A DNA stretch of 34,720 nt from Candidatus Thalassarchaeaceae archaeon (lineage in GTDB: Archaea; Thermoplasmatota; Poseidoniia; Poseidoniales; Thalassarchaeaceae), in contig JASLKT010000011.1 in the NCBI GenBank assembly GCA_030747395.1, forward strand, positions 1-34,720. The letters are read 5' to 3'. Positions 2,253-34,720 of the stretch are shown piece after piece. The position numbers and the translations under genes are program-made. Every line of letters begins with the position of its first letter. The stretch's first letter is position 1. A model generated the notes under the pieces. That model did no database searches and was not told the origin of the DNA. It was given only the letters and a program-made list of their open reading frames with translations.

Positions 2253-2263
2253 TCTGTGATGCA

Positions 2264-2273
2264 GAGGGTACCC
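2264..2273. repeat. Short palindrome AGGGTACCCT between convergent trxA and pyrE
   Basis: agggtaccct read directly; lies between the trxA stop (2252) and the pyrE stop (2273). Confidence 0.4.
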
Positions 2274-2860: not shown

Positions 2861-2937
2861 CCTTCTCCCCGCTGTGCGTCGTTGCCGACCTTCCATGAAC
2901 CTTCGCCGAGTGTGAATACACTTCCTATGGAAGTGGA

Positions 2938-5900: not shown

Positions 5901-7137
5901 AACCATTCGCTTCGATATGATTGATGTCCCTGTAACTCATTTCAAACCCAAGGACATTGGTACGGATGTTGACCGTTTGATTGAATTGGGATACACACAT
6001 GACATCGATGGTAGAGCCTTAACAAAGGCTGACCAAATCTTGGAATTGTATCCTCAGGACTTCATTCCGAGTCGCAAAGCTGAGGACTACCTCCTTCGCG
6101 CCTCGGCTTTTGTCGATGAATTACTTGTACGATTTTATGACATGGAACCATTCTACAAGGCTGAAACTGCAAATGATCTCGTCGGCCATCTTTGTGTCGG
6201 CCTTGCTCCTCACACGTCTGGAGGGGTGTTGACAAGACTCATTGGCTGGTCGAATGCGAGTGCTGGCTATGGCCATACATTGTATCATGCAGCCAAACGG
6301 CGCAACTGTGACGGTGATGAAGATGCGTTGATTCTGTTGTTGGATTGTCTTCTCAACTTCAGTCGAGAATTACTTCCCAGCAATCGAGGAGGGAGGATGG
6401 ATGCGCCACTCACCCTATCCACACGTCTCAATCCAGAAGAACTTGACAAGGAAGCGCTCAATGTCGACACGTCTTGGTGGTATCACCGAGGCTTCTACGA
6501 AGCCACACAAAATCAACCGAACCCTGCGGAAATTGCCAACCAAATGGACATTGTCGATCGACGAAAAGGTTCGGTGGGCGCTGTGCGAGGATATGGCTTC
6601 ACACATGATGCGCAATCCATTGATTCGGGACCTGAGAATTCATCCTACAAAACGTTGGACACCATGATTGACAAAATGAATGCACAACTCCTCTTGTGTC
6701 AACAATTGCGAGGCGTGGATGTTCGAAAAGTCGCTAGTCAGGTTGTCGAATCGCATTTCCTACCTGATCTTCGAGGCAATCTTCTCGCTTTCACTCGCCA
6801 AAAATTTCGATGTGTACGCTGTGGAGAATCATATCGGAGATTCCCATTGGCGGGAAATTGCATCAAAGACATCGAACAAAAACGAGGGAGGCAAGGTATG
6901 CGTTCCGGAATAGATTTCGCAAGAGGAGAAGCTCACCTTTGTGGTGGAAACCTCGCCCTTACAGTCAGTGAAGGCGCAGTTCGAAAATACATTCGAGTGA
7001 TGCAGCACGTCATCGAACACTACGAGGTTAACCTCTATACTCGACAACGTGTAGAGGGTTTGGTCAGCAGTGCAGATTCATTGTTCAAGAATGATCGTGT
7101 AACAGTGTTCACACTGGATGATTTCATCAGTGGATGA
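2938..7137 (+). CDS. polC: Archaeal family D DNA polymerase, large catalytic subunit DP2
   Basis: 1399-aa ORF: CGPIRAAGGTAQALAVLIADMIRR, IRGGVMLVIGEGLCLKAAKIQK, PLVPSGYVSDWF, RIGCRMGRPEKA, APHTSGGVLTRLIGW, NCDGDEDALILLLDCLLNFSRELLPSNRGGRMDAPLTLS, VESHFLPDLRGNLLAFTRQKFRC. True start may be an internal ATG (2983 or 3004). Confidence 0.97.
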   Translation: MYSTQCFRAVVNPWAMFARRDEMSEGGVSRSVAPLDVSRLESEMANYQAYLDEKCEEIYQLAGEARSKGFDLKGEVEIPRAIDLADRAEKLLEDYLRPFPNEKPIPIQDDIRKMLAEKESREDAAIDMAVHVALQMHDATADVKKSVDTGLRVGLAVLTEAVLVAPLEGIGQVRILNNLDGTRFVSIDFCGPIRAAGGTAQALAVLIADMIRRALKLDKYEPTVPEIERVKEEFGLYRGGLQYKPPPEEIEMIVKACPIMINGEETESIECAGYREVRNIDGGRIRGGVMLVIGEGLCLKAAKIQKHTERLEIPGWGFISTFASRQKKDTESTTAKRRKIKTDNRFMGDIIAGRPVFGEPNTPGGFRLRYGRPRTSGLAAAGVHPASMHAMGDFLAVGTQMKIERPGKACAVVPCDDLDGPTVLLNSGRYGRIQSAEMWHRIENDVLSIWDNGELMIGYGEFAENNKPLVPSGYVSDWFASDLLEKLNSAENVEKFASVLGVSRRRLPEGLPSTGSIDDSNDELENHRRQRTWHRELRKMILDWDTIVELSRTFLTAIPPPWNLWWNDLPLEFTTPLIDTLLDGEIEPASHPQDGISTHPHPDRNWMRLSGAVAHWEPIDHTPEKLPMRGGNQATQAATRNTIPKQMPGQIKSIATSVLGDWPNGTHHQEHGIVKSALMILGVPHMHDGSDILIMHGWQPLIEGMGLQISANGTGVEIRVDAKAHLESRLSRLVDANQTCNAEKERVSALEMRRSTLRIAAETAARQRGDTIAETEIEGQKAAEEIIDDGPNEPDTLESAESLLDEHGVDGALWLVRKCSDLRWVAAAPCRIGCRMGRPEKAAPREMKGKPHCIFPIGNEGGPQRLITEAANKGTILVTMGTRECTKCGQRSPYTICHHRMIPTNPTECGGQTRPIDDGRPSNGRRKGINQSVNLPALLETKRIKMGLDRIPKKFKGVKGLTSAERYPEPLEKGILRAIHQLPAFKAGTIRFDMIDVPVTHFKPKDIGTDVDRLIELGYTHDIDGRALTKADQILELYPQDFIPSRKAEDYLLRASAFVDELLVRFYDMEPFYKAETANDLVGHLCVGLAPHTSGGVLTRLIGWSNASAGYGHTLYHAAKRRNCDGDEDALILLLDCLLNFSRELLPSNRGGRMDAPLTLSTRLNPEELDKEALNVDTSWWYHRGFYEATQNQPNPAEIANQMDIVDRRKGSVGAVRGYGFTHDAQSIDSGPENSSYKTLDTMIDKMNAQLLLCQQLRGVDVRKVASQVVESHFLPDLRGNLLAFTRQKFRCVRCGESYRRFPLAGNCIKDIEQKRGRQGMRSGIDFARGEAHLCGGNLALTVSEGAVRKYIRVMQHVIEHYEVNLYTRQRVEGLVSSADSLFKNDRVTVFTLDDFISG

Positions 7138-8154
7138 TTAGCGTTTTTTCTTCTTCTCTTTTTCACTGCCACTGAGTCTTCGCCATAAATCGCCAACAGT
7201 TCTAATATTGCGATCTTCCTCAACCTTTCCAGTCAATCCTTCGGTTGTTCCTGGGCCCAATTCGTCATCTTGATCAATGGCATCATCATCAACAAAGGCA
7301 TCCGTATCACCATCGGCTTCGGTAGTTTGTGCGGCAAACTGTTCCCTCATTCTTCGCCTTTGCATTTCCATGCTTTCATCCTCATCTTGTGGTTGGAAAC
7401 CCACTAAATCCTCAACATCAACCGCATCTCCTCCAGACATCGATTGAGCAATCTGCTCCCAGTCTTCCTTCTGCCGGCGTTTGTGTAATGGCATATTTCG
7501 GATCAATGCTTCCTGTCGTCTTCTAAGATATCGCCGTATGGCTCGATCTGCAATGCCCAAAAACAAGCCCAAGGCATTGGCGACAACAAATCCCTCGATT
7601 CGGAATGGTTCCCAAAGATGCATTCCAAGATCCATTTCGGCACTAAGATTTCTTGAAGGGTAAAGATCGGCACTTTCACCTTGAATTACCGTCGTGTAGA
7701 ATATGTGTTTACCAGCGATTAAAGACATTGAATAATCGGGACATTCGTCTGTGGAATTGCCCTCCCATATAGTCGATAATTCGCCGGACGGGGTTTCGTG
7801 TTGAATGCGAACCAATACAACCGGAACTGTGGAATTTTTGGGTTCGAAATCGCATGTCAAATCGACTGGAATCTCTCGATCTAATCTCATCATGTTGGGT
7901 ACGTCAAGGGTATATTTTCCATTGACATCGCGCCCATGTTTGTTGACTTCATTGACTGCGATGGCCTGAGATGCTTGCAGCCAAATGAGATTTAGAAGAA
8001 TCCAAGTGACAAGTGTGACCAAAAATCTTGTTCGCGCGTTTTTCTTTGCATCCTTCTTGGGCTTCTTGCCATTCGTAGTTGATTCGCGAGCCATTGCCTC
8101 ATGGACCAAATTCACATTTCCACCCCCGCGATTTGAAGGATGCGACTCATCCAC
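7138..8154 (-). CDS. Membrane protein of unknown function with charged C-terminal tail
   Basis: Hydrophobic segments ARTRFLVTLVTWILLNLIWLQAS and GFVVANALGLFLGIADRAIRRYLRR flank an extracytoplasmic-looking domain; the tail is acidic and then ends EKEKKKKR. A start at the internal ATG near 8094 would avoid most of the overlap with the upstream gene. Confidence 0.7.
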   Translation of the reverse strand: MDESHPSNRGGGNVNLVHEAMARESTTNGKKPKKDAKKNARTRFLVTLVTWILLNLIWLQASQAIAVNEVNKHGRDVNGKYTLDVPNMMRLDREIPVDLTCDFEPKNSTVPVVLVRIQHETPSGELSTIWEGNSTDECPDYSMSLIAGKHIFYTTVIQGESADLYPSRNLSAEMDLGMHLWEPFRIEGFVVANALGLFLGIADRAIRRYLRRRQEALIRNMPLHKRRQKEDWEQIAQSMSGGDAVDVEDLVGFQPQDEDESMEMQRRRMREQFAAQTTEADGDTDAFVDDDAIDQDDELGPGTTEGLTGKVEEDRNIRTVGDLWRRLSGSEKEKKKKR

Positions 8155-8849
8155 TCTAATTTACGCATCTTTCGTTCTGGAACTGTGGCACCCGTCCATC
8201 GACCAATGATGTCGGTCCGGAATCCCCTCAATGTGATTTGATTGCAAGAGACATTCAAGGCCAAGGCAAAGCAAACTGCCCGATCCCCATCAGTGAATCC
8301 TCCTGGATTAATCATACCAGCCAATTGGCTTGGTGTTTGGTGTGTTAGAATTAGAGGAGTGTTGTACAAATGTAGAACATCGAGTAATTCCAACCATTCC
8401 GCTTGATTATCACCATGCGCGTGGAGTATGAATGGGATTTTTCGTTCTGCGGCCATTGCTAGGTGCGCCATATCTCCATCTGCATCTCCAACTACACAGA
8501 GCAATGAGTTCCAAGCTATTTCCGGATATTCTGCTTCAATGAGAACGCCCACTGAGCCATCAGCTACAATCAATCGGTGCCCTGCCAAGATTGCATCTCG
8601 CACATCTTCAGGTTCAGCTGCTGCTCCTAAAATTGAAATTGGGCCCGAAATTAATTGTTCTTGCAAATGTAGTTGAGTGTTCAAACGACCTTGATCATTC
8701 CATGTTTCCAATGACCAAGATTTTTCATTGCAGACCCAACGTAAGTTCTTTGCAGAATCTAAATCAGCAGCTAATTTCCATCCAAAATCATCTCTAATCT
8801 CATCCTGAATTTCAATCAGGTTGGAGTTTGGGGGTGCAGCCACAATCAC
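8112..8849 (-). CDS. mptE: MptE-like 6-hydroxymethyl-7,8-dihydropterin pyrophosphokinase
   Basis: ISILGAAAEP, VVGDADGDMAHLAMAAERKIPFILHAHGDN, TPLILTHQT, GFTDGDRAVCFALAL, ITLRGFRTDIIGRWTG; the D-D-G-D / HAHGDN / GFTDGDRA pattern matches archaeal MptE (DUF115 superfamily). Confidence 0.83.
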   Translation of the reverse strand: MIVAAPPNSNLIEIQDEIRDDFGWKLAADLDSAKNLRWVCNEKSWSLETWNDQGRLNTQLHLQEQLISGPISILGAAAEPEDVRDAILAGHRLIVADGSVGVLIEAEYPEIAWNSLLCVVGDADGDMAHLAMAAERKIPFILHAHGDNQAEWLELLDVLHLYNTPLILTHQTPSQLAGMINPGGFTDGDRAVCFALALNVSCNQITLRGFRTDIIGRWTGATVPERKMRKLEWMSRILQIAGVEM

Positions 8850-8867
8850 CCGGAGGTATAGAGAGCC

Positions 8868-10043
8868 TTGAAGAACCCTCGTTCACCGGGTAGACACTCC
8901 ATGCCGATGCCATTGCAGCCTCCAGCCATCGAGGATTCCGTTGTTACAGCCCGGTATCCATTCCTCCCTCAGGCGAATCCTGCGATTATAGCGCATATGG
9001 AAGCCAATCAGGTAGATTTGGAGGCATTGGTGGACACTGAATGGCTTGAAGCCGTTCGCGTGCGGGCGCGCGTAAGGCTACTGGAATCGGTGAACTTCAA
9101 GGAAATCGATGCTACAACCTCTGTCGATATTCATACACCATACGGACAGATGGTTGAATGTCTATCATTCCTTTACGCAATGGTCACTGTGTGTGCATCC
9201 TTTGATGAACGATTGTTGGGGCGTTGGGCAGAAGGTGAAGCGAGTCGGGCTGATCATTTGTGGGGCAGTATCGAAACACCTGATTCATTTCAACGACTCG
9301 CAGAGACCTATCTAAGCGGCGTACGCAAAGGTGAAGATGGGAACTGGGAAGTGTCCATGATTGATTTTATCGAGATTTGCCCAAAAATTAGTGGCGCTTA
9401 CTGGCGCTTACCAAATCGTCCGGTTCTGAATGGTTGGGTGACTCTTTCTCCAGACTCTCGAGAGAACAGTCAACAACGTCTTTCTCGACTTCTAAAAGAG
9501 CGTATACGAACGCAACTGATTGATGAATGTCGAGAAAGAATGGAGCGAATGGATGAGGCCTTTGTCGGTCGAATGGCAGAGGAAGTGGGGCGAATTGTGG
9601 GCTTGTTGCAACATCGAGCGAGTACTGAGGTTTCATTCACTTCTGCTGATGAAGAAGATTGGCCACCTTGTATGCGAGAAATTACCACTCAACTAGCCCA
9701 ATCTGTCAACATCAACCATGTGGGGCGTGTATTCCTTGCCAGTATGTCACGTGTCATTGGCCTCACAGTCGATGAGGCGCAAGCGCTTTTCATGAATGCA
9801 CCTGATTATTCCGCTGATACAACGCGCTACCAATTAAATCATGTCTACGAACATGAATACACACCAGCAGGATGTCCGAAATTGCAAATTAACGCTTGTT
9901 GTCCAATCAGTCGTGGGGATGCAAAGTCGAATTTGTGTAGCAGGGAATGGATGGATCACCCCTTGAAATATCTCCGTGCGCGTCAACGTGCCAAACATCG
10001 TGAAGAACAAACGGCGGCGTCTGCATCTTCAGCAGACAAATAG
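8868..10043 (+). CDS. priL: DNA primase large subunit PriL (Fe-S domain)
   Basis: N-terminal ARYPFLPQANPAI; C-terminal DWPPCMREITTQL...NHVGRVFLASMSRVIGLTVDEAQALF...YQLNHVYEHEYTPAGCPKLQINACCP...NLCSREWMDHPLKYL, with conserved cysteines as in PriL 4Fe-4S domains. True start may be the internal ATG at 8901 or 8907. Confidence 0.92.
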   Translation: MKNPRSPGRHSMPMPLQPPAIEDSVVTARYPFLPQANPAIIAHMEANQVDLEALVDTEWLEAVRVRARVRLLESVNFKEIDATTSVDIHTPYGQMVECLSFLYAMVTVCASFDERLLGRWAEGEASRADHLWGSIETPDSFQRLAETYLSGVRKGEDGNWEVSMIDFIEICPKISGAYWRLPNRPVLNGWVTLSPDSRENSQQRLSRLLKERIRTQLIDECRERMERMDEAFVGRMAEEVGRIVGLLQHRASTEVSFTSADEEDWPPCMREITTQLAQSVNINHVGRVFLASMSRVIGLTVDEAQALFMNAPDYSADTTRYQLNHVYEHEYTPAGCPKLQINACCPISRGDAKSNLCSREWMDHPLKYLRARQRAKHREEQTAASASSADK

Positions 10044-10046
10044 AAT

Positions 10047-11162
10047 TCAAACGCCCCAATAGCGGCCAGTGTCTTGCTTTGATTCCCAAGAACGCACGCC
10101 CGTTCGAACTGCCCAGAAGATAAACAAAGCAAGGAGAGTTTGCCCCCAATCGTTCATGATGGTGGTTACGTCATACTCGTATCCACCTCCGTCTGTAATT
10201 CGAATCGCTACTTCTAGAGCAGCCGTTGCCATCGTCCACAATACAGCACCAAATGCGATAATCAATACCGAACGGCTGCTGAAATGGCCTTTCTTCCAAC
10301 GCAAAACCATGAGTGATAAAGCGAAAGAAAGGGCTCCAAGAACAATCCAAGTTAGGGATTTCTGTAGCACTGTTAATCCCATCAAAATATTACCACCGCC
10401 ACCATCCACTTGGAATTCAGCATACGTGTCGTACCCCTCTACAACAGCGAGTAAAATCGCGACACCGGTCACAGCCCACAACAATGAGGACAGGATGGCT
10501 GCATCTGCGGATTCGCGCATATCGCGCATCAATCGGTCCAAGCGATCTTCAGCACCAAGGCCCTTGAATAAGAGATATACACCAACCAAAAGAGGCATTG
10601 AGCCAATGAGGGCGCTACCATTTGGTAGAATCATTCCAAGGCCCAGAATTATCATGAAGACTGCGATTGGCACGAGGAGTCTTGCTCGCCAGCGCGGGTC
10701 TTCGATCGCTTTTGCGATGTAGTAGTATGTCCCTTCGATACCTTTCGATTGACGCACAATAATTTTCTCAACATGATCGATTGAAAGTCGGCTAGAGAGG
10801 ATTGGCAACACCGATTCATCTTCCATTCCGTCGGTGACCAAAACACCACGATCGGGCTGGAATTCTGAAATGACATCCTCAAGTTGCTGTGCGATGTTTC
10901 GGTCGGACTTGATGCCAACTCGCTCATCTCCAGTTAGAATGGCAATCTCAACAGCATCATTGGGTTCAGCGCTCTCTGCCAAGAGGTCGTGCTGATGCAA
11001 TGCACCCAGAATGGCATTTGTATCACTCTCTTCTGGATCCGCAATGCCCAGGCGAAGGGCCGCAGTGAGTACTTGACGACGACCAACAACGCTTCCGCGT
11101 ATGCCTGCTTTGACCCCCAAATCGTTGTCACGATCAACGGTGATAACCAAAGTTCGAACCAT
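10047..11162 (-). CDS. DUF373 family membrane protein
   Basis: MVRTLVITVDRDNDLGVKAGIRGSVVGRRQVLTAALRLGIADPEESDTNAILGALHQHD...VLVTDGMEDESVLPILSSR...IIVRQSKGIEGTYYYIAKAIEDP followed by several TM helices; typical archaeal DUF373 pattern. Confidence 0.87.
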   Translation of the reverse strand: MVRTLVITVDRDNDLGVKAGIRGSVVGRRQVLTAALRLGIADPEESDTNAILGALHQHDLLAESAEPNDAVEIAILTGDERVGIKSDRNIAQQLEDVISEFQPDRGVLVTDGMEDESVLPILSSRLSIDHVEKIIVRQSKGIEGTYYYIAKAIEDPRWRARLLVPIAVFMIILGLGMILPNGSALIGSMPLLVGVYLLFKGLGAEDRLDRLMRDMRESADAAILSSLLWAVTGVAILLAVVEGYDTYAEFQVDGGGGNILMGLTVLQKSLTWIVLGALSFALSLMVLRWKKGHFSSRSVLIIAFGAVLWTMATAALEVAIRITDGGGYEYDVTTIMNDWGQTLLALFIFWAVRTGVRSWESKQDTGRYWGV

Positions 11163-11175
11163 CTAGTGTGCCTCC

Positions 11176-11196
11176 CGCACCCCTAAGGGGGGTGCG
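11176..11196. other. Intergenic hairpin CGCACCCC-TAAGG-GGGGTGCG
   Basis: 8-bp perfect stem read directly, between the stop of the Zn-ribbon gene (11231) and the start of the DUF373 gene (11162). Confidence 0.6.
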
Positions 11197-11230
11197 AGTG
11201 TGTTTTCAATTGTTGGATAAATTGCCACAA

Positions 11231-11662
11231 TTAAGACGTAAATGTGGATTCAGCCAAACAACTGGGGCATGTGACTTTGATTGGGCGGGTTGATGGGATG
11301 CCCAATGCGGAGTTGCACAAAGGGCACATGACAGCCTGTTCAATCTGTGATTGACGGGCTCTTCCTTCCCTACTTGGATCATATGTCGGGCGATATTTTG
11401 ATGCATCTTGAATGTAGTTTGCTGTTTGACCAGATGGGGCACTGGGGGCCGATTCTGGTGCTGAAAATGTAGAGGGGAGTGCCCCCCCACTCTTCCAAGC
11501 ATTAAATTGAGATTCAACTTCTGCGGCACTCATTCTGTGATCCCTTCCGATTCGATCGTATGCAAGCATTCGATCATAATCATCCATGGCGTCGAGTTTC
11601 GCCAATACGTCCGCTGGTAGCATGTCTCTCAGATGACTTCGATTGGTAATTCGTATTAGCAA
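11231..11662 (-). CDS. Small protein with C-terminal zinc ribbon, function unknown
   Basis: 143-aa ORF ending VMCPLCNSALGIPSTRPIKVTCPSCLAESTFTS (CPLC...CPSC). Start may be the internal ATG near 11623. Confidence 0.75.
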   Translation of the reverse strand: MLIRITNRSHLRDMLPADVLAKLDAMDDYDRMLAYDRIGRDHRMSAAEVESQFNAWKSGGALPSTFSAPESAPSAPSGQTANYIQDASKYRPTYDPSREGRARQSQIEQAVMCPLCNSALGIPSTRPIKVTCPSCLAESTFTS

Positions 11663-11701
11663 TTTTCACTGATTGCTCTCTGAATATCACTCAAAATGGA
11701 G

Positions 11702-13372
11702 TTATGGGATAAGGTGAGGAGTTAGAATATCGAGTAATTGACCCATCAACTGCTCTCCATCGACATCAATTCCTCTTGCAAATCGAATTGAGATTGATGT
11801 TTTGGCTTCAGTTCCCGAATTTCGGACCGCAATTGAGATTGGCAATTCATCAATTACTCCTTCCAGCAATAACAACGCTGGTTCTCCCGCGACGTTGATG
11901 CGAGAAAGTGAGGAATTACACCAATCCTCTGCTGTTGATTGAACCAATTGAGAAAGCTCATTCTCGCCGGTCCAACGCTCTCTGACGCTCGGACGAATTG
12001 AACTGCGCTTTTTCCAGCCACATTGGAAGGCGGGAGGGGTCCCTTCTTTGCAAAGTGCTGCTCTTGCGAGAAGGGCTGCGAGAAGGGTGGCGGCACCATC
12101 ACCAACCAGTGCCCATCTATCGTTGGCATTGGGTACGGGTGCCGGCATCACCAAATGGCCTGAATCTTCAGTTCCAATGACTTTGGGAACATCAGATGAT
12201 CCGAACCATCTCAACTCTGACTCTGGCCACAATGCAGCAGACAACCAGCGGTCACCGACTGCGGTAGTTATCGATTCATGTTCACCCAACCGCGATAAGT
12301 CTGCAGTTAACCCAAGATCGCTTTCTATACTGGCTGCCATTTTCCATGTCTCTGAATGTGTACGTATTGCTGCACGCATTATCTCATCACACATTCGATC
12401 GCCATCGACAATTTGCAATCCGTCTGAGGTTGATTCAATCAACAAACAACGATCACCGTCTCCATCCAGTGCGGCCCCAACAATTTGTCCAGGTGCCCAA
12501 GGAGGTGTGCCATCATTATCTTCCAACCGCTGTGTAATACTCCACAATAGACGGTGGGATGGTGGGTCCATGAGGAGTTGTTCAATCGACCATTGAGCTG
12601 TAGGTGAAAAATCGCCAGCCCCGCAATCTTGGTTAATTGGATCTAATCGACTGCTGACCTCAATCGTCTCTAATCCGCGACGTGTTAGGCCGTCTGCCAA
12701 CCATTCAGTTCCAGCACCACCTGAGCAATCTAGTAGCAAACCTTGCATTGGAACAACATCATTCCAATTCACGGTTGCAAATTCCACACCCATCAGTGTC
12801 TCTAATGATTGTAAACGATTTTTCAGGGCGCCACGATAAAGACTCAAGCCATCAATTTCATCCAGTGATACCACTGTTTCTTGTGGGGCGGCCAATCCAC
12901 CATCTGCCAATTGCCAAGCGAGTTCCGATATTCGATCTTCGACTTCTGGCATCGACTTGTAACCTTCCGAATCAAAGAGTTTCACTCCTGAATCGGTTGC
13001 AGGATTGTGACTAGCTGTCACCATCATTCCCGCATCTGCAGCACTTGAAAGAACTGCGTTGTGTAGTCCAGGGGTGGGTAGTTCCCCGACCCTGAGTGTG
13101 CGACATCCCGCTGCACCCAATCCGGATTCCAACGCATCGACGAGGGTCGCATTTCCATCACGCCGATCCCAGCCGAGAATGACCAAGGGGGATTCGCCAA
13201 CATCGTCCACCAGAAACAAACCGGTTGCTTCTCCGATAATCCGCATCGAACGATTGCTGAGAAGTCGTTGCCCAATCAACGCGTTGAGTACCGCTTCATC
13301 ATCTCCATCAATATTCAGATTATCTATTCGCCCGCGAATGCCGTCCGTACCGTGCAGTCGAGGTCGTGTCAT
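11702..13372 (-). CDS. glmM: Phosphohexomutase (phosphoglucosamine/phosphomannomutase family)
   Basis: RLHGTDGIRG, VTASHNPATDSGVKLF, ALDGDGDRCLLIE, GTEDSGHLVMP, AVRNSGTEAKTSISIR; all four alpha-D-phosphohexomutase motifs. Substrate not assignable from sequence alone. Confidence 0.9.
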   Translation of the reverse strand: MTRPRLHGTDGIRGRIDNLNIDGDDEAVLNALIGQRLLSNRSMRIIGEATGLFLVDDVGESPLVILGWDRRDGNATLVDALESGLGAAGCRTLRVGELPTPGLHNAVLSSAADAGMMVTASHNPATDSGVKLFDSEGYKSMPEVEDRISELAWQLADGGLAAPQETVVSLDEIDGLSLYRGALKNRLQSLETLMGVEFATVNWNDVVPMQGLLLDCSGGAGTEWLADGLTRRGLETIEVSSRLDPINQDCGAGDFSPTAQWSIEQLLMDPPSHRLLWSITQRLEDNDGTPPWAPGQIVGAALDGDGDRCLLIESTSDGLQIVDGDRMCDEIMRAAIRTHSETWKMAASIESDLGLTADLSRLGEHESITTAVGDRWLSAALWPESELRWFGSSDVPKVIGTEDSGHLVMPAPVPNANDRWALVGDGAATLLAALLARAALCKEGTPPAFQCGWKKRSSIRPSVRERWTGENELSQLVQSTAEDWCNSSLSRINVAGEPALLLLEGVIDELPISIAVRNSGTEAKTSISIRFARGIDVDGEQLMGQLLDILTPHLIP

Positions 13373-15787: not shown

Positions 15788-15804
15788 CGGCCCCCTTGGG
15801 GCCG
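15788..15804. other. Hairpin CGGCCCC-CTT-GGGGCCG between divergent pckA and the 1352-aa membrane protein gene
   Basis: 7-bp perfect stem with a 3-nt loop read directly. Confidence 0.6.
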
Positions 15805-19937: not shown

Positions 19938-19956
19938 CGTCCCTCATAGAGGGACG
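19938..19956. terminator. Hairpin CGTCCCTC-ATA-GAGGGACG immediately downstream of the 1352-aa ORF
   Basis: 8-bp perfect stem, 3-nt loop, starting 5 nt after the stop codon. No clear T-run follows, so terminator function is not established. Confidence 0.45.
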
Positions 19957-23938: not shown

Positions 23939-24829
23939 ATGGTTAAAATCGAAATTGTTGATGAGCGCGATAATCACGTAACAGTTCTTCTCAAGGAGAC
24001 TGATCGAGCATTCGCGAATGCATTGCGTCGTACACTGATGAGTAATGTTCCCAAAATGGCAATTCACCGAGTTCGTTTTGAATTGGGGACGATTGAAGAT
24101 AGTGCAACAGGTGAGACCTACGAATCTATGGGTGCACTTCCAGATGAAGTCATTGCACATCGTTTGGCTATGATTCCCATCCCGACGTTCCACGATGAAT
24201 TTTGCTTCTTGGAAGATGATCCTGGCAATGAGGGCCTACCTCGTGAGGAGTGGGGGACACCCGCAAGTCAAATCATCTACCACTGTAGTGCAAGAGGAAC
24301 GCGAGAAGGGCACCTCGTGACAGCTGGTGACCTCAATGTTCTTGGAGAAGAGAAATTGCAGATTTCGGAATTGTATCGCGATATTCCAATCACAAAACTT
24401 TTCACGGGCCAATACATTGAATTCTATGCATACGCTGTTCTCGGTGTAGGCTCGGATCATTCCAAGTGGAATCCCGTCTCTGGAGTTTCTTTCAGTACAA
24501 GAAAAGTTGCAACAATTGCAAAACCCACTAAAGCAAAGGCACTTTGGGATTTGGATTTGTCCGTTGGAAAATCCGATTTCAAAAATAAGAAGCTTGAGGA
24601 CGTACAAAAAGTAGAAACTCTCATCCGAGATATGCATCATGTTGGAGATGGCACTGCTCGAATCGAAGATTTTGCTGATGCTATTTCTATTGAAGATGTT
24701 CCCGGAGAATATATCTTTAGCTTTGATACAGATGGTTCAATGACTGCTCGCAAAGCATTTGAAATGGGATGTAAGGCCCTTGCTTCGCGATTTTCAGGTC
24801 TTTCTGACCAATTAGCAGAGGAACTTTGA
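23939..24829 (+). CDS. rpoD: DNA-directed RNA polymerase subunit D (Rpo3)
   Basis: MVKIEIVDERDNHVTVLLKETDRAFANALRRTLMSNVPKMAIHRVRFE...DEVIAHRLAMIPIP; alpha/Rpb3-like; SD-like gggagg upstream of the ATG at 23939; follows S11 as in archaea. Confidence 0.95.
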   Translation: MVKIEIVDERDNHVTVLLKETDRAFANALRRTLMSNVPKMAIHRVRFELGTIEDSATGETYESMGALPDEVIAHRLAMIPIPTFHDEFCFLEDDPGNEGLPREEWGTPASQIIYHCSARGTREGHLVTAGDLNVLGEEKLQISELYRDIPITKLFTGQYIEFYAYAVLGVGSDHSKWNPVSGVSFSTRKVATIAKPTKAKALWDLDLSVGKSDFKNKKLEDVQKVETLIRDMHHVGDGTARIEDFADAISIEDVPGEYIFSFDTDGSMTARKAFEMGCKALASRFSGLSDQLAEEL

Positions 24830-24842
24830 GTCGTTCGACTCA
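24827..24842. terminator. Palindrome TGAGTCG-TT-CGACTCA spanning the rpoD stop codon
   Basis: 7-nt perfect inverted repeat that begins with the rpoD stop TGA; followed by AACCCCCCCTTAGAGGGTT. Terminator role inferred. Confidence 0.4.
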
Positions 24843-24867
24843 AGTGTAACCCCCCCTTAGAGGGTTT

Positions 24868-26974: not shown

Positions 26975-27336
26975 GAATCCGAGGGAAGCAATCCATGCCG
27001 TCGCTTGGCGAATTGATTGTATCCATAGTCACGCAGAGGTAGGGGAATCAGCCATAACAAAGTCCCAGCGATTTTCCAATGAAGTCTAAGTTCCCATAGC
27101 ATTCGGCAAATTGCACTTGAGCGAGCATACCATTGATGATTTTTGACAATGTACACAGAGTCTACATCTTTGAGTAATTCTGGACAAGATTCCATAACAG
27201 CATTACCTTCGGGTGAATCTTGAGGTAATAATTCAAACACTTTTTTTGGGTCTCTCTTGGAAATCCATTTCGCCCAACGATTGCAAGTCAAACAGAATCC
27301 ATCGAACAAAACAATGGGCAATGAAATCATCTCCAA
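26971..27336 (-). CDS. DCC family (DUF393) thiol-disulfide oxidoreductase-like protein
   Basis: LPIVLFDGFCLTCNRWAKWISKRDPKKVFELLPQDSPEG...DSVYIVKNHQWYARSSAICRMLWEL...LIPLPLRDYGYNQFAKRRHGLL; DG.C..C motif. Confidence 0.85.
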   Translation of the reverse strand: MEMISLPIVLFDGFCLTCNRWAKWISKRDPKKVFELLPQDSPEGNAVMESCPELLKDVDSVYIVKNHQWYARSSAICRMLWELRLHWKIAGTLLWLIPLPLRDYGYNQFAKRRHGLLPSDS

Positions 27337-30191
27337 GCGATACCTGGTTCCAATGGGATGCTTGATCGTGCTTTACCCGCAACATCTTCACCTGTTCCCG
27401 CCCGATACACTTCTACATCTTCTATTTCCAATGCAGCTACGATGAATTCAGCATTATCTAAGAGGAAATCAACTTCATTATATTCGCTTGAAACGAGAGC
27501 CCTTTCTTGTTCACCCCATGTGTGAATTCGACCCCTTCGTTTCTTCTGACCGACGACAATCGCACGCCAAAATTGCATCACGTCACCTTTTGTTTCTTCA
27601 TCTTGGAAGCATTGTTGAGTCTGCAAGAATTTATTTCCTCCTTCTTTGAAATCAAAGTTTTCATCGTGCATTTGAATCGCTTGTGATGCAAGTTTCACCT
27701 TCCAATGTTGTGCAGTTTGAATGATGACTGCTGAAAGATCTCCTTCGGTGTGACGCTCTGCCAATTCCCGGACACTTCGTGCCCGATCGATTACTCTCCG
27801 TAGATATTCTTCCTGACCTAGAACAATTACGTCGCGAGAAGATACTCCCTTTGAATTTTCTAAATCAAGAACTGTGAGGGCAAGCATGGTATCCATTCCC
27901 AAACCCTTCCACATCTCTTCTGCAAGATGTGGTGTAGCTGGATATAGCATGGGAATCCAACTGGTCAAATATTCACGACTGGCGCTGGCACTTACACCCC
28001 CTCGACGTTGGGCCCATTGCCAATCTGCAACCATTTCAAAATGGCTAATCATCACTCCATCTCTAAGGCCCACATTTGACATGCTGTCGATCCAACTACT
28101 GCGAGATTGGCGTGCGCGAGCAAGAAGCCATTCATCCATTGTCCCTAATTTTGAATCATTTTCAATACCTTGAACCAATGCAGAATGAATGGCCCTCATT
28201 TGGCGATAATTTGAATCGATGGCTGAATCTGACCAATCCATTCCAGCCTCTGGATTTGCACCAAAGAGGATGAACAAGCGGACTGTGTCAGCTCCGTATT
28301 TCTCAATCATTATTTCAGGACTGACTGTATTTCCTAGACTCTTACTCATTTTCGCGGATCTTGAACCCAATAGTCCGCCACAAGTCGGGCACTTTTGACC
28401 TTCTAAATCGACATGGTGTTCTACATTACAATCAGCACAGAAAGGAGTGGGGGCATTCACCATTCCTTGACAAACCAACTGAGAGAATGGCTCCGATACG
28501 TCATTGAGGCCAGCGTCTCGAAGGGCCTTGGTAAAGAATCGGGCATAGAGAAGATGCATGACAGCATGCTCGATTCCTCCAATGTAGAGATCTACGCCAT
28601 TCTCCAACCAATAATCAGCACTTTTCTTATCGAACGGAGCGGAGTCGTTGAGGGCATCTGCAAATCTCAAGAAATACCAAGATGAGTCATAAAATGTGTC
28701 CATTGTATCCGTTTCTCGTTTCGCTGCGGCGCCACAAGAGGGGCAATTTGTATTGACGAACCCGTCATGATTGGCCAAGGGATTCCCCGACTCGCCTTCT
28801 GTGAATACTACATCCAATGGTAATTCAACGGGCAAATTCGCCTCTGGAACTGGTATGACTCCGCAACTTCTGCAATGAATGAAAGGAATTGGTGTACCCC
28901 AAAAACGCTGACGACTCAACAACCAATCCTTCAGACGATATTGAACCGTACCTGTACCCATTCCTTCTCCTTCTAAGGCGTTGATGACTGCTGCTTTGGC
29001 GTCGTCACCATACAACCCATCAAAGCCGGGTTGACCTGAGTTTACCATCCACCCCAATCCCTCAAAGGCACGTCCCGTCACTTTCGGGTCCTTGCCTTCA
29101 TCTTCGGAAAGAACCTGAAGAATGGGTATTTCGTATTTCTTTGCAAATTCATGATCGCGTTGATCGTGGCCAGGTACTGCCATTACTGCACCGGTTCCAT
29201 ATGATGCAACAACGAAATTCCCAGCATAGATTGGAACCTTTTCTCCAGTCAATGGATTCGTTGCATAGCGCCCTAAGAATACTCCTTTCTTATCACGAAG
29301 CATATTGATGCGATCAAACTCTGATATTCTTGCGCATTCATCAGCAAGTTCACGGAAATCTGATTCGAATTCAGTGCCTGAAACAAGTGCGTTGCACAGG
29401 GGGTGTTCGGGTGCGAGAGTAACGAATGTTACACCAAAAATGGTATCTGGGCGTGTTGTGAATGCCTTGATGACATCATCACTATCAACGATTGGAAAGT
29501 GAATTTCGGCACCATGTGAGCGACCAATCCAGTTGCGTTGCATGGCCTTTACATTCTCAGGAAAGCTGATGTGTTCCAATTCGTCAAGTAATTCATCAGC
29601 ATATTCTGTCATTTTCAGAAACCACTGTGCCATGTCCTTCTGTCGGACTTCTCCGGCACATCTCCAGCAACGATTGTTCTTGACTTGCTCATTTGCCAGA
29701 ACAGTGTCACAGGGATCACACCAATTCACTGGGGCCGTTCGACGTTCTACCAAACCCATCTCATGGAATTTGAGGAAAATCCACTGGTTCCAACGGTAGT
29801 AGGTAGAATCACTTGTAGCCAATTCCCTGCGCCAATCATATGAGAATCCCATGCGATTCAAATCAGCACGAATACTCTCGATATTTGACCAAGTTACGTC
29901 ATGAGGGTGTCCGCCAATTTTCTTAGCAGCGTTTTCTGCTGGCATTCCAAAAGAATCGTAACCCATCGGATAGAGAACATTGTAACCTGCTAATCTGCGG
30001 AATCGGGCCATGCTGTCGCCAATACTGTAATTTCGAACGTGGCCCATGTGCATTTGACCACTTGGATATGGAAACATCTCCAAGCAGTAGAATTTCGGTC
30101 GGCTCGAATCCACTTCACTTTCGAACGCTTTGGCGTCGTTCCATGCGGATTGCCACTTGGCTTCAATTGTGGTAGGGTCGTAGTCCGTCAT
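27327..30191 (-). CDS. leuS: Leucyl-tRNA synthetase, bacterial type
   Basis: CLEMFPYPSGQMHMGHVRNYSIGDSMARFRRLAGYNVLYPMGYDSFGMPAENAA (HMGH), FTTRPDTIFGVTFVTLAPEHPL editing domain, FYDSSWYFLRFADAL, KMSKSLGNTVSPEIMIEKYGADTVRLF. Confidence 0.97.
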   Translation of the reverse strand: MTDYDPTTIEAKWQSAWNDAKAFESEVDSSRPKFYCLEMFPYPSGQMHMGHVRNYSIGDSMARFRRLAGYNVLYPMGYDSFGMPAENAAKKIGGHPHDVTWSNIESIRADLNRMGFSYDWRRELATSDSTYYRWNQWIFLKFHEMGLVERRTAPVNWCDPCDTVLANEQVKNNRCWRCAGEVRQKDMAQWFLKMTEYADELLDELEHISFPENVKAMQRNWIGRSHGAEIHFPIVDSDDVIKAFTTRPDTIFGVTFVTLAPEHPLCNALVSGTEFESDFRELADECARISEFDRINMLRDKKGVFLGRYATNPLTGEKVPIYAGNFVVASYGTGAVMAVPGHDQRDHEFAKKYEIPILQVLSEDEGKDPKVTGRAFEGLGWMVNSGQPGFDGLYGDDAKAAVINALEGEGMGTGTVQYRLKDWLLSRQRFWGTPIPFIHCRSCGVIPVPEANLPVELPLDVVFTEGESGNPLANHDGFVNTNCPSCGAAAKRETDTMDTFYDSSWYFLRFADALNDSAPFDKKSADYWLENGVDLYIGGIEHAVMHLLYARFFTKALRDAGLNDVSEPFSQLVCQGMVNAPTPFCADCNVEHHVDLEGQKCPTCGGLLGSRSAKMSKSLGNTVSPEIMIEKYGADTVRLFILFGANPEAGMDWSDSAIDSNYRQMRAIHSALVQGIENDSKLGTMDEWLLARARQSRSSWIDSMSNVGLRDGVMISHFEMVADWQWAQRRGGVSASASREYLTSWIPMLYPATPHLAEEMWKGLGMDTMLALTVLDLENSKGVSSRDVIVLGQEEYLRRVIDRARSVRELAERHTEGDLSAVIIQTAQHWKVKLASQAIQMHDENFDFKEGGNKFLQTQQCFQDEETKGDVMQFWRAIVVGQKKRRGRIHTWGEQERALVSSEYNEVDFLLDNAEFIVAALEIEDVEVYRAGTGEDVAGKARSSIPLEPGIAWR

Positions 30192-30209: not shown

Positions 30210-30228
30210 CGTGCACCGAAGGTGCACG
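30210..30228. other. Hairpin CGTGCACC-GAA-GGTGCACG between leuS and the membrane regulator gene
   Basis: 8-bp perfect stem, 3-nt loop, in the gap between 30191 and 30275. Confidence 0.6.
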
Positions 30229-30274: not shown

Positions 30275-32953
30275 TCATTCAGTGGAAACGTCGTAGTCAT
30301 TGCTGTTGACCAAGAAGATGGCTTCCCGAGTCAATTGATACCGATAACGCATGCCTACCTTTTCTCGCTCTACAAGGCCAAACTTCTCCAGTGTACGGAG
30401 GTGGTGACTGACCAATTGTTGACTAGCCTCAAGTCGCACCGACAATTCTTTCTGACTCAGATTCACGATGTCGTTTTCCGTGGCATCCAGAAGTCGCAGA
30501 ATCTTACCCTGCAAACTGTTAGGGTCGGGTGTAAGCAATGGAACTGGCAATTCATCCTCACCCAATGTCGATTGGATACTAGCTGGATAGAAGCGTACCA
30601 ATCGACCATCCTTACGCCTCCAAATTCTTTCGCCAGTCTGAAGGTGTTTGAGATGGTGTGTGAGTTGTCCGTTGCTCATCTCAAGGGCTCCCAGTAAGGC
30701 ACGGAAATGAACTCCGGGGTTTGCTGTTAGATAGCCCATAATGCGTCCGCGTTGATATTCACCATCGTGTTCACCTGATCGGCGGACCATTCCAACGAGG
30801 CCGAGGCCCACTTGCAATGCTGGAATCCGAATCCATTCTGTGTTGCCTAGGTAGAGCAATGTCATGAGGGAAAGTGATGTTGTTGCTACCACAGCAGCAG
30901 AGGTTGGGGCATAATTGATGATTTGGTCGACTGGGCTTGGAGGTGGAGATGAGGGGGTAACTGGAGCAACAATTTCAGGTGCGGTCTCGGTTTCATCCAA
31001 TGTCTGTAGAATTACGATGCCCGACCATGCAGCACAGTCATCTGGTGCTTGACCAGACTGTACCATGTAAGTGCCGCTTAGGCCAGGGGTGGGGGCCCAC
31101 TCATCATCTTGCACGTGTTCGATGAAACTGTATTCGACACCGACTGAATCGGTGAGGAGCCAACATCCCCGACTAGGTGTTGTGACATAATTCCACATTC
31201 CTGACAACCATACTTCTTCGATTGAATTGTCAGGGCTTTCTACAATATCTTCCTCGATTGTGTCGCTGCCAGAATTGTCTTCGACGACATCAGAAATGTG
31301 CGCCCCATCGTATGTGTGTGCAATTTGAGTAGTGAATGTCGGTAACGAAGTTGTTTGAATTGAGATATGCCAAGTACCCTGCGCCAATTCAATTCCATTT
31401 TCAACAAATGGCACTTCAATCGTAGGCCAAGTGTATCCCGATTGAGGTTCGATCAAACTCTCATGTCCTGCGAATTCGCCACAATCTTCGGCCCAAATTT
31501 GCGATGGGTTTTCTCCAACCATTGCTAGTTGTAATTCTAGAGTGCAATCAGTTGGCCAATAGAGATTGAATGCCTCGAATCCGATATTCTGAATCGTCAA
31601 ATCGAATGATACTCGTTCTTCAAGACTATCAGGTGAAAGAACTGCCAAATTATCTACTGTGAATCGAATGCTAGTCATATCTTGTTGTTCGGTTCCACAA
31701 CCTGGATTATCCCCACTATTGACGTGTAAAAACGACTGGGTTGCGACGATTCCGTGATCGGGTTGACTCAACACAAGTAGGTGGACGCCATCATCGATTT
31801 CGCAGCCGTTGGAACCCATGTAATCCCAACTGTCCGAAGCTAGAGTGTGGATGGTTTGCGGCGCAATTTTTTGCTCTATTCCCGAAGGGGGGCAAGGGCG
31901 GGTGTCGCGGGTGTCGTAGACGATTTCCCCACTAGGAGATATGATGTGCAATTCAACAATGCACGTGTTTTCATACAGTAACTTTGCAGGCACATCTGCG
32001 GGGTTCTGGAGCATGAAATACCAATTCAATTGATCTCCTGCATCAATGACTGCTTCTGGAATTATGTTAGCAACGGGGTTGGTTGGAATTCTTGTGTATG
32101 CTGTATCGACACTGCTCTCTGCCCCATTGACAGCTGTGAGTGCAAACGGAATTGTGTAATCGCCATCGGGAGCGTTGCCAAATGCCCACTCGGTCCAGCC
32201 GAGGTGCATCTTCTCTCCTGCAGCAATTGAACCACTGCCACATGGGATTGATGTGAGTATGTTTGTTTGCACCCGGCAATTCTCATCGAATGGGATATCG
32301 ATGGTGTTCTTTCCTGAATTGACCAAGGAGAGATGAATCATTGCAGGCATTGCAGAGGTATGGCCATATTGATCGCCGATGGTTTCTGAAAGGGTTGCTT
32401 CAAGGTGAAGATTTTCTGGCATCTCAACGGTACGGTGAAGAATCACTGATTCAGTTGCCGAAAGTTCGTGATACTGGACGGCCGCTTCCGTCCCCCCGTC
32501 CTGCGTGAATGCGAGTTCGATGTCACCACTAGGAGTATCACTCCAATCCCAAGTCCAAGTGGAGAGAATGCGTTCTTGACCCGCTTGAATTGTCATTGCT
32601 CGACTTTGAGTCGGACAAATTCGCTCGTCATCAATATCGAGTTTCCACTCATCATTTGTGATGATTAAATCAAATGGGCAAGCGGGATTGTAGGTCAACT
32701 CCTTTGCATCATCACCATGATTCTTGACCCGCAGGGTGACTTCTAGGTCAGATGCATCTGAAAAATACAAGCCATTCTCTGGTGTATCGATTTCGATTCG
32801 CAACTCAAGGCCGTTTTCAGCAGGTTCAGCGACAGCGAGTGGGGCCAAGACCATCAAAATCAGCAATGCCGCCAATGACGCCGGCCTGAAATTGACATCC
32901 CGTAGCATGCGCTCGCCCCATATCGTCAGCATTGTCCTCCCGTTTGAAACCAT
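30275..32953 (-). CDS. Membrane protein with repeated extracytoplasmic beta-sandwich-like domains and two C-terminal winged-helix DNA-binding domains
   Basis: Signal-like N-terminus (MLRDVNFRPASLAALLILMVLAPLAVA), long secreted region with four Cys-paired repeats, TM segment (TSAAVVATTSLSLMTLLYLG), then RGRIMGYLTANPGVHFRALLGALEMSNGQLTHHLKHLQTGERIWRRKDGRLVRFYP and QGKILRLLDATENDIVNLSQKELSVRLEASQQLVSHHLRTLEKFGLVEREKVGMRYRYQL. Start uncertain: 32977, 32953 or 32908. Confidence 0.85.
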   Translation of the reverse strand: MVSNGRTMLTIWGERMLRDVNFRPASLAALLILMVLAPLAVAEPAENGLELRIEIDTPENGLYFSDASDLEVTLRVKNHGDDAKELTYNPACPFDLIITNDEWKLDIDDERICPTQSRAMTIQAGQERILSTWTWDWSDTPSGDIELAFTQDGGTEAAVQYHELSATESVILHRTVEMPENLHLEATLSETIGDQYGHTSAMPAMIHLSLVNSGKNTIDIPFDENCRVQTNILTSIPCGSGSIAAGEKMHLGWTEWAFGNAPDGDYTIPFALTAVNGAESSVDTAYTRIPTNPVANIIPEAVIDAGDQLNWYFMLQNPADVPAKLLYENTCIVELHIISPSGEIVYDTRDTRPCPPSGIEQKIAPQTIHTLASDSWDYMGSNGCEIDDGVHLLVLSQPDHGIVATQSFLHVNSGDNPGCGTEQQDMTSIRFTVDNLAVLSPDSLEERVSFDLTIQNIGFEAFNLYWPTDCTLELQLAMVGENPSQIWAEDCGEFAGHESLIEPQSGYTWPTIEVPFVENGIELAQGTWHISIQTTSLPTFTTQIAHTYDGAHISDVVEDNSGSDTIEEDIVESPDNSIEEVWLSGMWNYVTTPSRGCWLLTDSVGVEYSFIEHVQDDEWAPTPGLSGTYMVQSGQAPDDCAAWSGIVILQTLDETETAPEIVAPVTPSSPPPSPVDQIINYAPTSAAVVATTSLSLMTLLYLGNTEWIRIPALQVGLGLVGMVRRSGEHDGEYQRGRIMGYLTANPGVHFRALLGALEMSNGQLTHHLKHLQTGERIWRRKDGRLVRFYPASIQSTLGEDELPVPLLTPDPNSLQGKILRLLDATENDIVNLSQKELSVRLEASQQLVSHHLRTLEKFGLVEREKVGMRYRYQLTREAIFLVNSNDYDVSTE

Positions 32954-32977
32954 TGGCGCCCCCTTAGGGGGGGCCAA
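32953..32977. other. Hairpin TTGGCGCCCCC-TTAG-GGGGGGCCAA at the start of the membrane regulator gene
   Basis: Stem TTGGC/GCCAA plus CCCCC/GGGGG with one bulge, in the divergent region toward 33021. Confidence 0.55.
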
Positions 32978-33020
32978 TGAGCCGCCGAACCATTGATTGC
33001 CTATCCCCTAATGGAGAATC

Positions 33021-33776
33021 ATGGCCCTAGCAAGCGGAGAATTCGACGTCTCCATAGGAGACGATGGAATTGAGGTATGGGTTACGCAAATGGGCACTAT
33101 GGCGAATATGAATACGGCATTTATCGACAGAGAAAACCGTATTGTGGCTGTCGTAGATCCATTTGATGGAAAAGGATGGCTCAAAGCCCTAAATGCTGAG
33201 AACTTAGAGCCGACTCACATTCTATTGACGCATACCCACAGAGATCATACTGCTGGAGTCAAAGCAATCCGTAAAGCACATCCCGAGATTGAAGTTTGGG
33301 GGCACGAAGAATCGGTTTCACCAAGCCTCTTTGGACGTATCATTTTCACGAAAACTGATTTTACACACATTTGGAAGCATGTTCCAAATGAAATAATCAC
33401 ATGGGAGTGTGGCAATATTCAACTTTCAGTTACTCATTCCCCGGGTCATTCTCCTGGTCACGTGACCTTCCATGGACACGACGTGTATGTTGCAGGGGAT
33501 TTGCTGTTTACCATGCGTTCAGGGCGAGTCGATTTACCGGGTTCGGATCCTGCTGCGCAATGGCGTAGTTTGGCCAAGGCAAAATCAATCTTACAAAACC
33601 TTCCAAGTGATTGGCGCCTCATCCCTGGCCACAGATATGATTGGATTGATGGAACCACTCCTGATTGGGTCACGATTGAACAAGCATTGAAGCACAATCT
33701 TTCACTGAATGCATTGGATATCGAAACATTCGACGCATTGCCATTCAATCGATTTGACGATGAATTATCAAATTAA
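33021..33776 (+). CDS. MBL-fold metallohydrolase (glyoxalase II-like)
   Basis: HILLTHTHRDHTAGVKAIRKAHP, VTHSPGHSPGHVTFHGHDVYVAGDLLF, LIPGHRYD; HxHxDH and downstream metal ligands. Confidence 0.92.
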   Translation: MALASGEFDVSIGDDGIEVWVTQMGTMANMNTAFIDRENRIVAVVDPFDGKGWLKALNAENLEPTHILLTHTHRDHTAGVKAIRKAHPEIEVWGHEESVSPSLFGRIIFTKTDFTHIWKHVPNEIITWECGNIQLSVTHSPGHSPGHVTFHGHDVYVAGDLLFTMRSGRVDLPGSDPAAQWRSLAKAKSILQNLPSDWRLIPGHRYDWIDGTTPDWVTIEQALKHNLSLNALDIETFDALPFNRFDDELSN

Positions 33777-34720
33777 TCTAGAAGATCACCTAGACTGGGC
33801 AGAGATGCTTTTTCAGCTTCTTCTTGTTCCATGTGAACCTGCCATTCAGCCTTCTCAATATAACCGAGTTCCTTCGCTTTCTCAATATCACCGGTCGAAA
33901 GATAGTGGTCAATCCACTTCTGGCGTCGCTCTTGTTCTTCATCGTTGAAGGCCATTTCTTGTTGCTGCATTTCTCGGATTTCAGAGAGCCGCTTTCGAGC
34001 GCCCATCTGTTTGGCAACCAATGCAACGAAAATGAGTGAAAGAAGTAGTGTGATGAAACCACCCATGATGTACATCATTGCAGATGAGTCATCTTCTTCT
34101 CCTTGTGAATCTCCTATATCTGCCGATGTGATTTGGCATTTCTGACCGATCAAGTGGATGTCAGGATCATATGGACAGGCGTCCGCGGTATCCGACCAGC
34201 CGTCTTCGTCACTATCGGGGCAACCAAATTTGTCTTCCCAAGAGAATCCCATCACACTCTTGCAAAGGTCGGGTTGATAGTCCCCAATTGCGCTATTGTC
34301 TCCGAATCCATCACGGTCGGCATCTTTCGATTGTGTAAATCGCAATGGGAACGCGTCAGAGTTTCTAGCGTCCGCAACCAATTCTCCTGGCCAACATTCG
34401 AGTCTAACTGTGGAGTTGTCCTTGTAATTGTCACCAAATCCATCGCCATCAGTATCACTCCATTGTGTGGCTTCATCTGGGAAGGCATCTCCATTCTGCA
34501 CTCGAGAAAGAATCAATCCTGAATCGATATCACAATCCCACCGATAGGAATCATCACTCAGTTTCTCACCGGTTACATTGGTGTATGTGTAATTGTCACC
34601 GTAGCCATCGCCATCTGAATCAGCCCACTGCGTGGGGTCTTCGGGGAATGTGTCAATGGTATCTGCCCATCCATCACCATCTGAATCGGTGCAACCGTAG
34701 ACATTGCCTTCGGTAGATGA
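33773..34720 (-). CDS. Surface protein with thrombospondin-type-3-like Asp-rich repeats and a C-terminal TM anchor (partial, N-terminus outside the window)
   Basis: The frame is open to the window end; own translation gives SSTEGNVYGCTDSDGDGWADTIDTFPEDPTQWADSDGDGYGDNYTYTNV... then NGDAFPDEATQWSDTDGDGFGDNYKDN...GCPDSDEDGWSDTADACPYDP...AMMYIMGGFITLLLSLIFVALVAKQMGARKRL. TTG, not ATG, underlies the track's M at 34516. Confidence 0.9.
   Translation of the reverse strand, partial: SSTEGNVYGCTDSDGDGWADTIDTFPEDPTQWADSDGDGYGDNYTYTNVTGEKLSDDSYRWDCDIDSGLILSRVQNGDAFPDEATQWSDTDGDGFGDNYKDNSTVRLECWPGELVADARNSDAFPLRFTQSKDADRDGFGDNSAIGDYQPDLCKSVMGFSWEDKFGCPDSDEDGWSDTADACPYDPDIHLIGQKCQITSADIGDSQGEEDDSSAMMYIMGGFITLLLSLIFVALVAKQMGARKRLSEIREMQQQEMAFNDEEQERRQKWIDHYLSTGDIEKAKELGYIEKAEWQVHMEQEEAEKASLPSLGDLLD
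34140..34720 (-). repeat. Imperfect tandem repeats encoding D-x-D-G-D-G units (Ca-binding type)
   Basis: Repeated units DSDGDGWADTIDTFPEDPTQW / DSDGDGYGDN / DTDGDGFGDN / DADRDGFGDN / DSDEDGWSDTADACP; also visible in DNA as recurring 'ccatcgccatctgaatc(a/g)'-like segments. Confidence 0.8.

Follow-up and report, generated by a model that had tools for sequence, protein, structure and literature searches.

Among membrane-spanning transcriptional regulators, proteins of the ToxR/CadC type have an N-terminal, OmpR-type winged helix-turn-helix (wHTH) domain and are inserted in type II orientation. CadC is a studied membrane-bound regulator (PMC6320335), while in archaea the experimentally studied membrane-bound one-component transcription factors are ArnR and ArnR1 of Sulfolobus acidocaldarius, composed of an N-terminal HTH, a HAMP domain, a sensory domain and two C-terminal transmembrane (TM) segments (PMC6396743). 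One-component regulators combining a predicted TM region with a DNA-binding domain were defined as TTRs by Demey et al. 2023 (PMC10269533); single-pass proteins are the commonest form (56%), and 1,384 archaeal cases were listed, with words starting with "thermoplasm" or "euryarch" absent from the main text of that paper. The BsuPI domain is named after IPI, a protein with an Ig-like fold; doubts have been raised about IPI as a protease inhibitor, and it may serve as a module for protein contacts (PMC3901451). In the same work, BsuPI domains were associated with subtilisin-type proteases, all archaeal homologs came from Halobacteriaceae, and the domain key of the architecture figure was devoid of a wHTH.

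In the protein analyzed in this work, both a TM region and a DNA-binding domain are predicted, and as TTRs have been defined and listed for archaea (PMC10269533), this kind of protein is already known. It differs from the described TTRs in having a signal peptide, a very long N-terminal ectodomain and a DNA-binding part that is C-terminal and doubled. Compared with ArnR, the order of parts is reversed and a single TM helix is present, and the protein is not a member of that group. Like CadC and ToxR, it is a membrane regulator that has one TM pass and senses on the outside, but its two ArsR/MarR-like DNA-binding units lie at the C-terminus, which places it outside the ToxR/CadC group as well. 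With Bacillus IPI (PDB 3isy) it has the Ig-like fold in common (weak profile match, E 0.034), whereas here four tandem copies with paired cysteines are mounted on a membrane regulator. The likeness to HVO_0163-type proteins (PF24266) concerns the N-terminal wHTH of the tail, which is followed by a second wHTH; many members of that type were found to be small and to lack a TM segment, whereas here the tail lies beneath a large ectodomain. A literature search on COG3398 and COG2512 returned nothing relevant.

The gene is located in a window of 34,720 nucleotides (the whole stretch of DNA analyzed), which is contig 21 of the 1.6-Mb genome of a Marine Group II archaeon (Thalassarchaeaceae, Poseidoniales). 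The minus-strand ORF, counted from its first start codon, spans positions 30275-32977, and an earlier note, made on this DNA alone, had placed the start at 32953. However, two relatives (loci L003 and L006) have in-frame stops directly 5' of the conserved start codon, which is kept as ATG or GTG among relatives. Since the upstream frame is thus non-coding in relatives, ATG 32908 is the best start, and the regulator most likely begins there and is 877 aa long, the previously proposed start being 15 codons too early. From this ATG, the N-terminus reads MLRDVNFRPASLAALLILMVLAPLAVA, where the signal peptide ends, and continues with EP. The signal-like N-terminus pointed out in the earlier note recurs as a hydrophobic export signal in homologs of all sampled genera, many of them with AxA at its end. 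Full-length homologs in most genera of one family and in four genera of the other argue against a chance ORF. The features of the locus are summarized in Table 1.

Table 1. Features of the regulator locus (positions within the window; residues, res, counted from ATG 32908)
Feature	Position	Strand	Basis
leuS, leucyl-tRNA synthetase, downstream neighbour	27327..30191	-	Identified from translation
Regulator gene, most likely 877 aa + stop	30275..32908	-	Conserved ATG/GTG; in-frame stops upstream of the start in relatives
Signal peptide, res 1-27, ending AVA	32828..32908	-	Hydrophobic N-terminus in every genus sampled; model helix 9-24
Ectodomain D1, BsuPI domain, res 28-160, Cys77/Cys98	32429..32827	-	Pfam BsuPI; Cys invariant
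Ectodomain D2, BsuPI-like, res 161-280, Cys211/Cys223	32069..32428	-	hhalign D1-D2 E 7e-12
Ectodomain D3, BsuPI-like, res 281-411, Cys316/Cys339 and Cys369/Cys404	31676..32068	-	hhalign D1-D3 E 3.5e-18
Ectodomain D4, BsuPI-like, res 412-540, Cys455/Cys476	31289..31675	-	hhalign D1-D4 E 1.3e-08
Ectodomain D5, separate beta domain, res 560-645, Cys582/Cys625	30974..31231	-	pLDDT mostly 76-91; Cys invariant
Transmembrane helix, res 667-689	30842..30910	-	Hydropathy; helix in full-length and tail models
Juxtamembrane helix, res 691-712, probably interfacial, E691 and R694 conserved	30773..30838	-	Conservation; both models
Winged helix 1, res 715-775, HVO_0163 N-terminal type	30584..30766	-	PF24266; PDB 5duk E 6.5e-15; model
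Winged helix 2, res 799-859, ArsR/MarR-like, C-terminal helix to about res 873	30332..30514	-	Pfam, profile, model
Divergent promoter region, common to regulator and MBL-fold gene	32909..33020		About 45 nt almost unchanged among 10 congeneric genomes
27-bp inverted repeat ATTGGCGCCCCCTTAGGGGGGGCCAAT, candidate operator or 5' hairpin	32952..32978		Conserved in genus
MBL-fold hydrolase, glyoxalase II-like, divergent neighbour	33021..33776	+	PF00753 70.8 bits; synteny

Judging from profile comparisons, the sensor is composed of four tandem BsuPI-like Ig domains (D1-D4) and a fifth domain. D1 scored 39.5 bits against Pfam BsuPI (PF12690; gathering cut-off 22.9), and a match to this family at E <= 0.01 was obtained for 28 of the 33 scanned family members. 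The Pfam scan recovers one BsuPI domain, D2-D4 being joined to BsuPI only through their profile similarity to D1. The four domains are mutually homologous, with E-values from 4e-07 (D2-D4, the weakest pair) to 4e-18, so that the secreted repeats recognized earlier are real; the sensor (about 640 aa) had also been correctly described as extracellular, although its BsuPI-like nature was missed. In the profile comparison, D5 gave no significant match to D1-D4. The AlphaFold model showed beta-rich (beta-sandwich) domains with pLDDT mostly 80-92. A fold search of the ectodomain retrieved only generic multi-Ig proteins with TM-scores <0.2 and was uninformative as to the ligand. The cysteine pair of D1 aligns at, or adjacent to, those of D2, D3, and D4, and the ectodomain pairs are retained in all 58 homologs, save for one column (57). 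As these invariant pairs are confined to the ectodomain and the tail is poor in cysteine (<1 on average), the ectodomain is probably stitched by disulfides.

Sequence rules characterize the regulator as a type I membrane protein, with a signal peptide, an ectodomain, one TM helix and a cytosolic tail. Hydropathy and both structure models agree on the single TM helix noticed before. The ectodomain is acidic (22 K+R versus 101 D+E), and K+R amounts to 0.4 in the 15 aa preceding the TM helix and to 5.3 in the 36 aa following it, a pattern which fits a tail located inside (positive-inside rule). The winged helices are thus predicted to lie in the cytosol; a location outside the cell, or a failure of the HTH units to model as winged helices, had been named in the earlier note as fatal to its proposal, and neither of these outcomes was obtained. 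The juxtamembrane helix is fairly hydrophobic and was modelled (residues 691-707) beside the TM helix, so it might be taken for a second TM segment, which would put the tail outside the cell and make the protein no regulator at all. We regard this as highly improbable: E691 and R694 at the start of the helix are conserved and K/R residues occupy its end, distant relatives sharing the tail type have a shorter hydrophobic segment at this place, the tail is Cys-poor and non-acidic, and extracellular winged helices would make no sense.

Both HTH units proposed for the tail exceeded Pfam cut-offs and were modelled as winged helices. HTH_HVO_0163_N (PF24266) scored 53.3-53.4 bits (cut-off 31) and matched at E <= 0.01 in 33/33 family members, whereas MarR_2 and ArsR HTH_5 scored 30.7 and 27 bits (cut-offs 27 and 22, respectively). 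The full-length model was poor in this region, and a good one was obtained only for the tail alone with a wider alignment (42 sequences; pLDDT 87.7), showing two complete winged helices, each with the order helix-helix-helix-strand-strand. The structure search with the tail retrieved SmtB, CzrA, and MepR folds (TMt about 0.5-0.73), and the profile search, a check suggested in the earlier note, linked the second winged helix to ArsR/SmtB proteins and the first one to PDB 5duk. As the ArsR/SmtB metalloregulator model NF033788 (NCBIfam) narrowly missed its cut-off (53.0 versus 55 bits) while the fold is similar, we use the term ArsR-like winged helix and not ArsR metalloregulator. The Pfam scan of the protein found neither a histidine kinase nor a receiver domain, which bears out the earlier remark on the lack of a kinase and places the protein outside the two-component systems. 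Conservation per 40-aa block was 0.70-0.79 in the tail versus 0.25-0.44 in the ectodomain, as expected for a regulator with a drifting sensor.

Taken together, the protein is probably a single-pass TTR, in which an external BsuPI-like sensor controls a cytosolic double-wHTH tail acting on promoters from the membrane. The exported N-terminal part, with its four BsuPI-like Ig domains and the fifth domain, would bind something outside the cell, and the TM helix with the short juxtamembrane helix would link it to the double winged helix. Binding outside would, probably by altering the geometry of a dimer or oligomer across the single TM helix, change the binding of promoter DNA by the tail, with the protein still embedded in the membrane. 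Whereas the architecture, conservation, predicted tail fold and topology by sequence rules are documented here, the disulfides, DNA binding, dimerization and signal transfer are inferred. The linker between D5 and the TM helix is poorly conserved and of low model confidence, and could expose a cleavage site; together with the association of BsuPI domains with subtilisin-type proteases (PMC3901451), it makes conceivable a regulator that is cleaved in or near the membrane upon an external signal, the freed double-wHTH tail then reaching DNA. Such a release is unlikely, as no protease gene adjoins the regulator (its neighbours are leuS and the MBL-fold gene), and it is not required either: ArnR (PMC6396743) and CadC (PMC6320335) are studied membrane-bound regulators.

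Among 395 Thermoplasmatota genomes sampled, 289 have the tail domain PF24266, which also occurs on proteins of 500-1,826 aa with other ectodomains; these large-ORF relatives were hand-picked for size and show the existence, not the frequency, of such proteins. In them the tail is C-terminal, and most have an N-terminal signal and a hydrophobic segment preceding the tail. Their ectodomains contain NosD/beta-helix (up to 1,826 aa), CARDB, PKD, or Big domains, whereas in paralogs from Poseidoniales the ectodomain consists of one small domain or of D-rich repeats containing Cys. One tail combined with swapped ectodomains is typical of proteins built from a sensor and an output part, in line with the reading as a regulator. 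The doubled wHTH, described previously as unusual, occurs in all 33 scanned family members and in distant relatives, and the sensor size, described likewise, is surpassed in related proteins, so that neither is odd in this known class of membrane-spanning regulators. The ectodomain could also be structural or adhesive, making protein-protein contacts at the surface, with the tail anchoring the protein to DNA or reporting the state of the envelope instead of a soluble ligand; BsuPI/Ig folds may serve such contacts (PMC3901451), and the fold matches were generic multi-Ig proteins. We consider this improbable, since the two winged helices are well formed and conserved in their core, which favours sequence-specific regulation, and relatives with the same tail vary freely in the ectodomain.

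Further members of the class were also encountered. The host genome encodes a second double-wHTH ORF of 234 aa. Locus L202 carries two adjacent genes for giant regulators on the minus strand (2263-7740 and 7837-13080; 1,826 and 1,748 aa), each combining a NosD/beta-helix ectodomain with a TM segment and a double-wHTH tail. Genomes of the third family of the class, probably Marine Group III, encode a conserved regulator (about 895 aa; L279-L285, one locus truncated) in which a double-wHTH tail of the same kind is joined to an unrelated-looking ectodomain. In short Poseidoniales paralogs (L274, L275, and L277), the double-wHTH tail is preceded by D-rich repeats with Cys that are similar to thrombospondin type 3/calcium-binding repeats. 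In the window itself, beyond the MBL-fold gene, positions 33773-34720 (minus strand) encode D-rich repeats (weak TSP_3 match, E 0.0088), a TM segment and a charged tail without HTH, and this protein may extend past the window.

In a sample of the order, 180 of 194 genomes gave a match to the regulator, some of these being short paralogs. Nearly all genera of family f2 have the full-length form (the four genomes of g20 lack it), and in family f1 it is present in g1, g6, g8, and g11. Two contigs labelled Deltaproteobacteria AH-558-G13 (L114) and Blastopirellula NAT61 (L123) carry the Marine Group II locus and are probably mis-assigned. In each of the 40 full-length loci leuS follows the regulator in the same orientation, and the divergent MBL-fold gene, whose match to the GloB model is under the cut-off, was detected upstream in most of them. 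In 12 genomes of seven f1 genera, leuS and the MBL-fold gene are adjacent without the full-length regulator. As the regulator-less f1 genomes form one clade in the LeuRS tree (support 0.99), the simplest reading is a single loss of the regulator within this family. The persistence of the adjacency without the regulator indicates a conserved gene order and is no proof of co-function; either gene was therefore rejected as an obligatory target, and they need not be targets at all. This fixed place between leuS and the divergent MBL-fold gene across the order and the BsuPI-repeat sensor, deeply conserved in an uncultured marine lineage, look new.

The palindrome at 32952-32978 lies within the near-invariant promoter block of the ten congeneric genomes, and other genera have different, often imperfect palindromes in the divergent promoter. 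It was considered as a private operator, but similar hairpins precede unrelated genes, and in genome G001, which has no regulator at the locus, a hairpin is still present between leuS and the MBL-fold gene. In the host genome 34 hairpins were found in 84 intergenic regions versus 3.25 expected from shuffles (about ten-fold), and because they are so common, the palindrome, kept as a candidate, is not assignable as the operator of the regulator. Perfect hairpins occur in the window at 2919-2935, 11176-11196, 15788-15804, 19938-19956, 24826-24843, and 30210-30228, and others in further stretches of the same genome (L217-L225 and L234-L236). They have arms of 7-10 and often a 3-nt loop closed by C-G, differ in sequence, occur also in divergent gaps and often near start codons, and are shorter than the 27-bp palindrome. 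The excess is weaker in family f2 loci (10 versus 2.6), and a loop motif derived from the hairpins was not enriched within the window.

HisKA kinases exceeded the cut-off in 1 of 29 genomes of the order and receivers in 28/29. The sole genome with HisKA above the cut-off, G067 (genus g11), has one such kinase about 1.4 kb from the regulator (contig C237). Given this near-absence of HisKA kinases, a main route from the outside to promoters in Poseidoniales may run through TTRs; the count covered HisKA and Response_reg only, and hence the replacement of kinases is put forward just as a hypothesis. More tentatively, it is possible that in Thermoplasmatota modular membrane regulators, with a conserved double-wHTH tail and freely exchanged ectodomains (ranging from next to nothing to about 1,600 aa), are a major replacement of sensor kinases, and that the BsuPI-repeat protein belongs to the core of Poseidoniales, with a protein or peptide outside the cell as its signal.

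Little is known of environmental sensing in Marine Group II archaea, which are abundant and have not been cultured. The regulator provides a clearly delimited candidate receptor with deep conservation, and DNA targets of its soluble tail can be sought without growing the organism. The ectodomain swaps on one tail across the phylum constitute a natural set for studying how, in archaea, signals pass across a lone TM helix to DNA.
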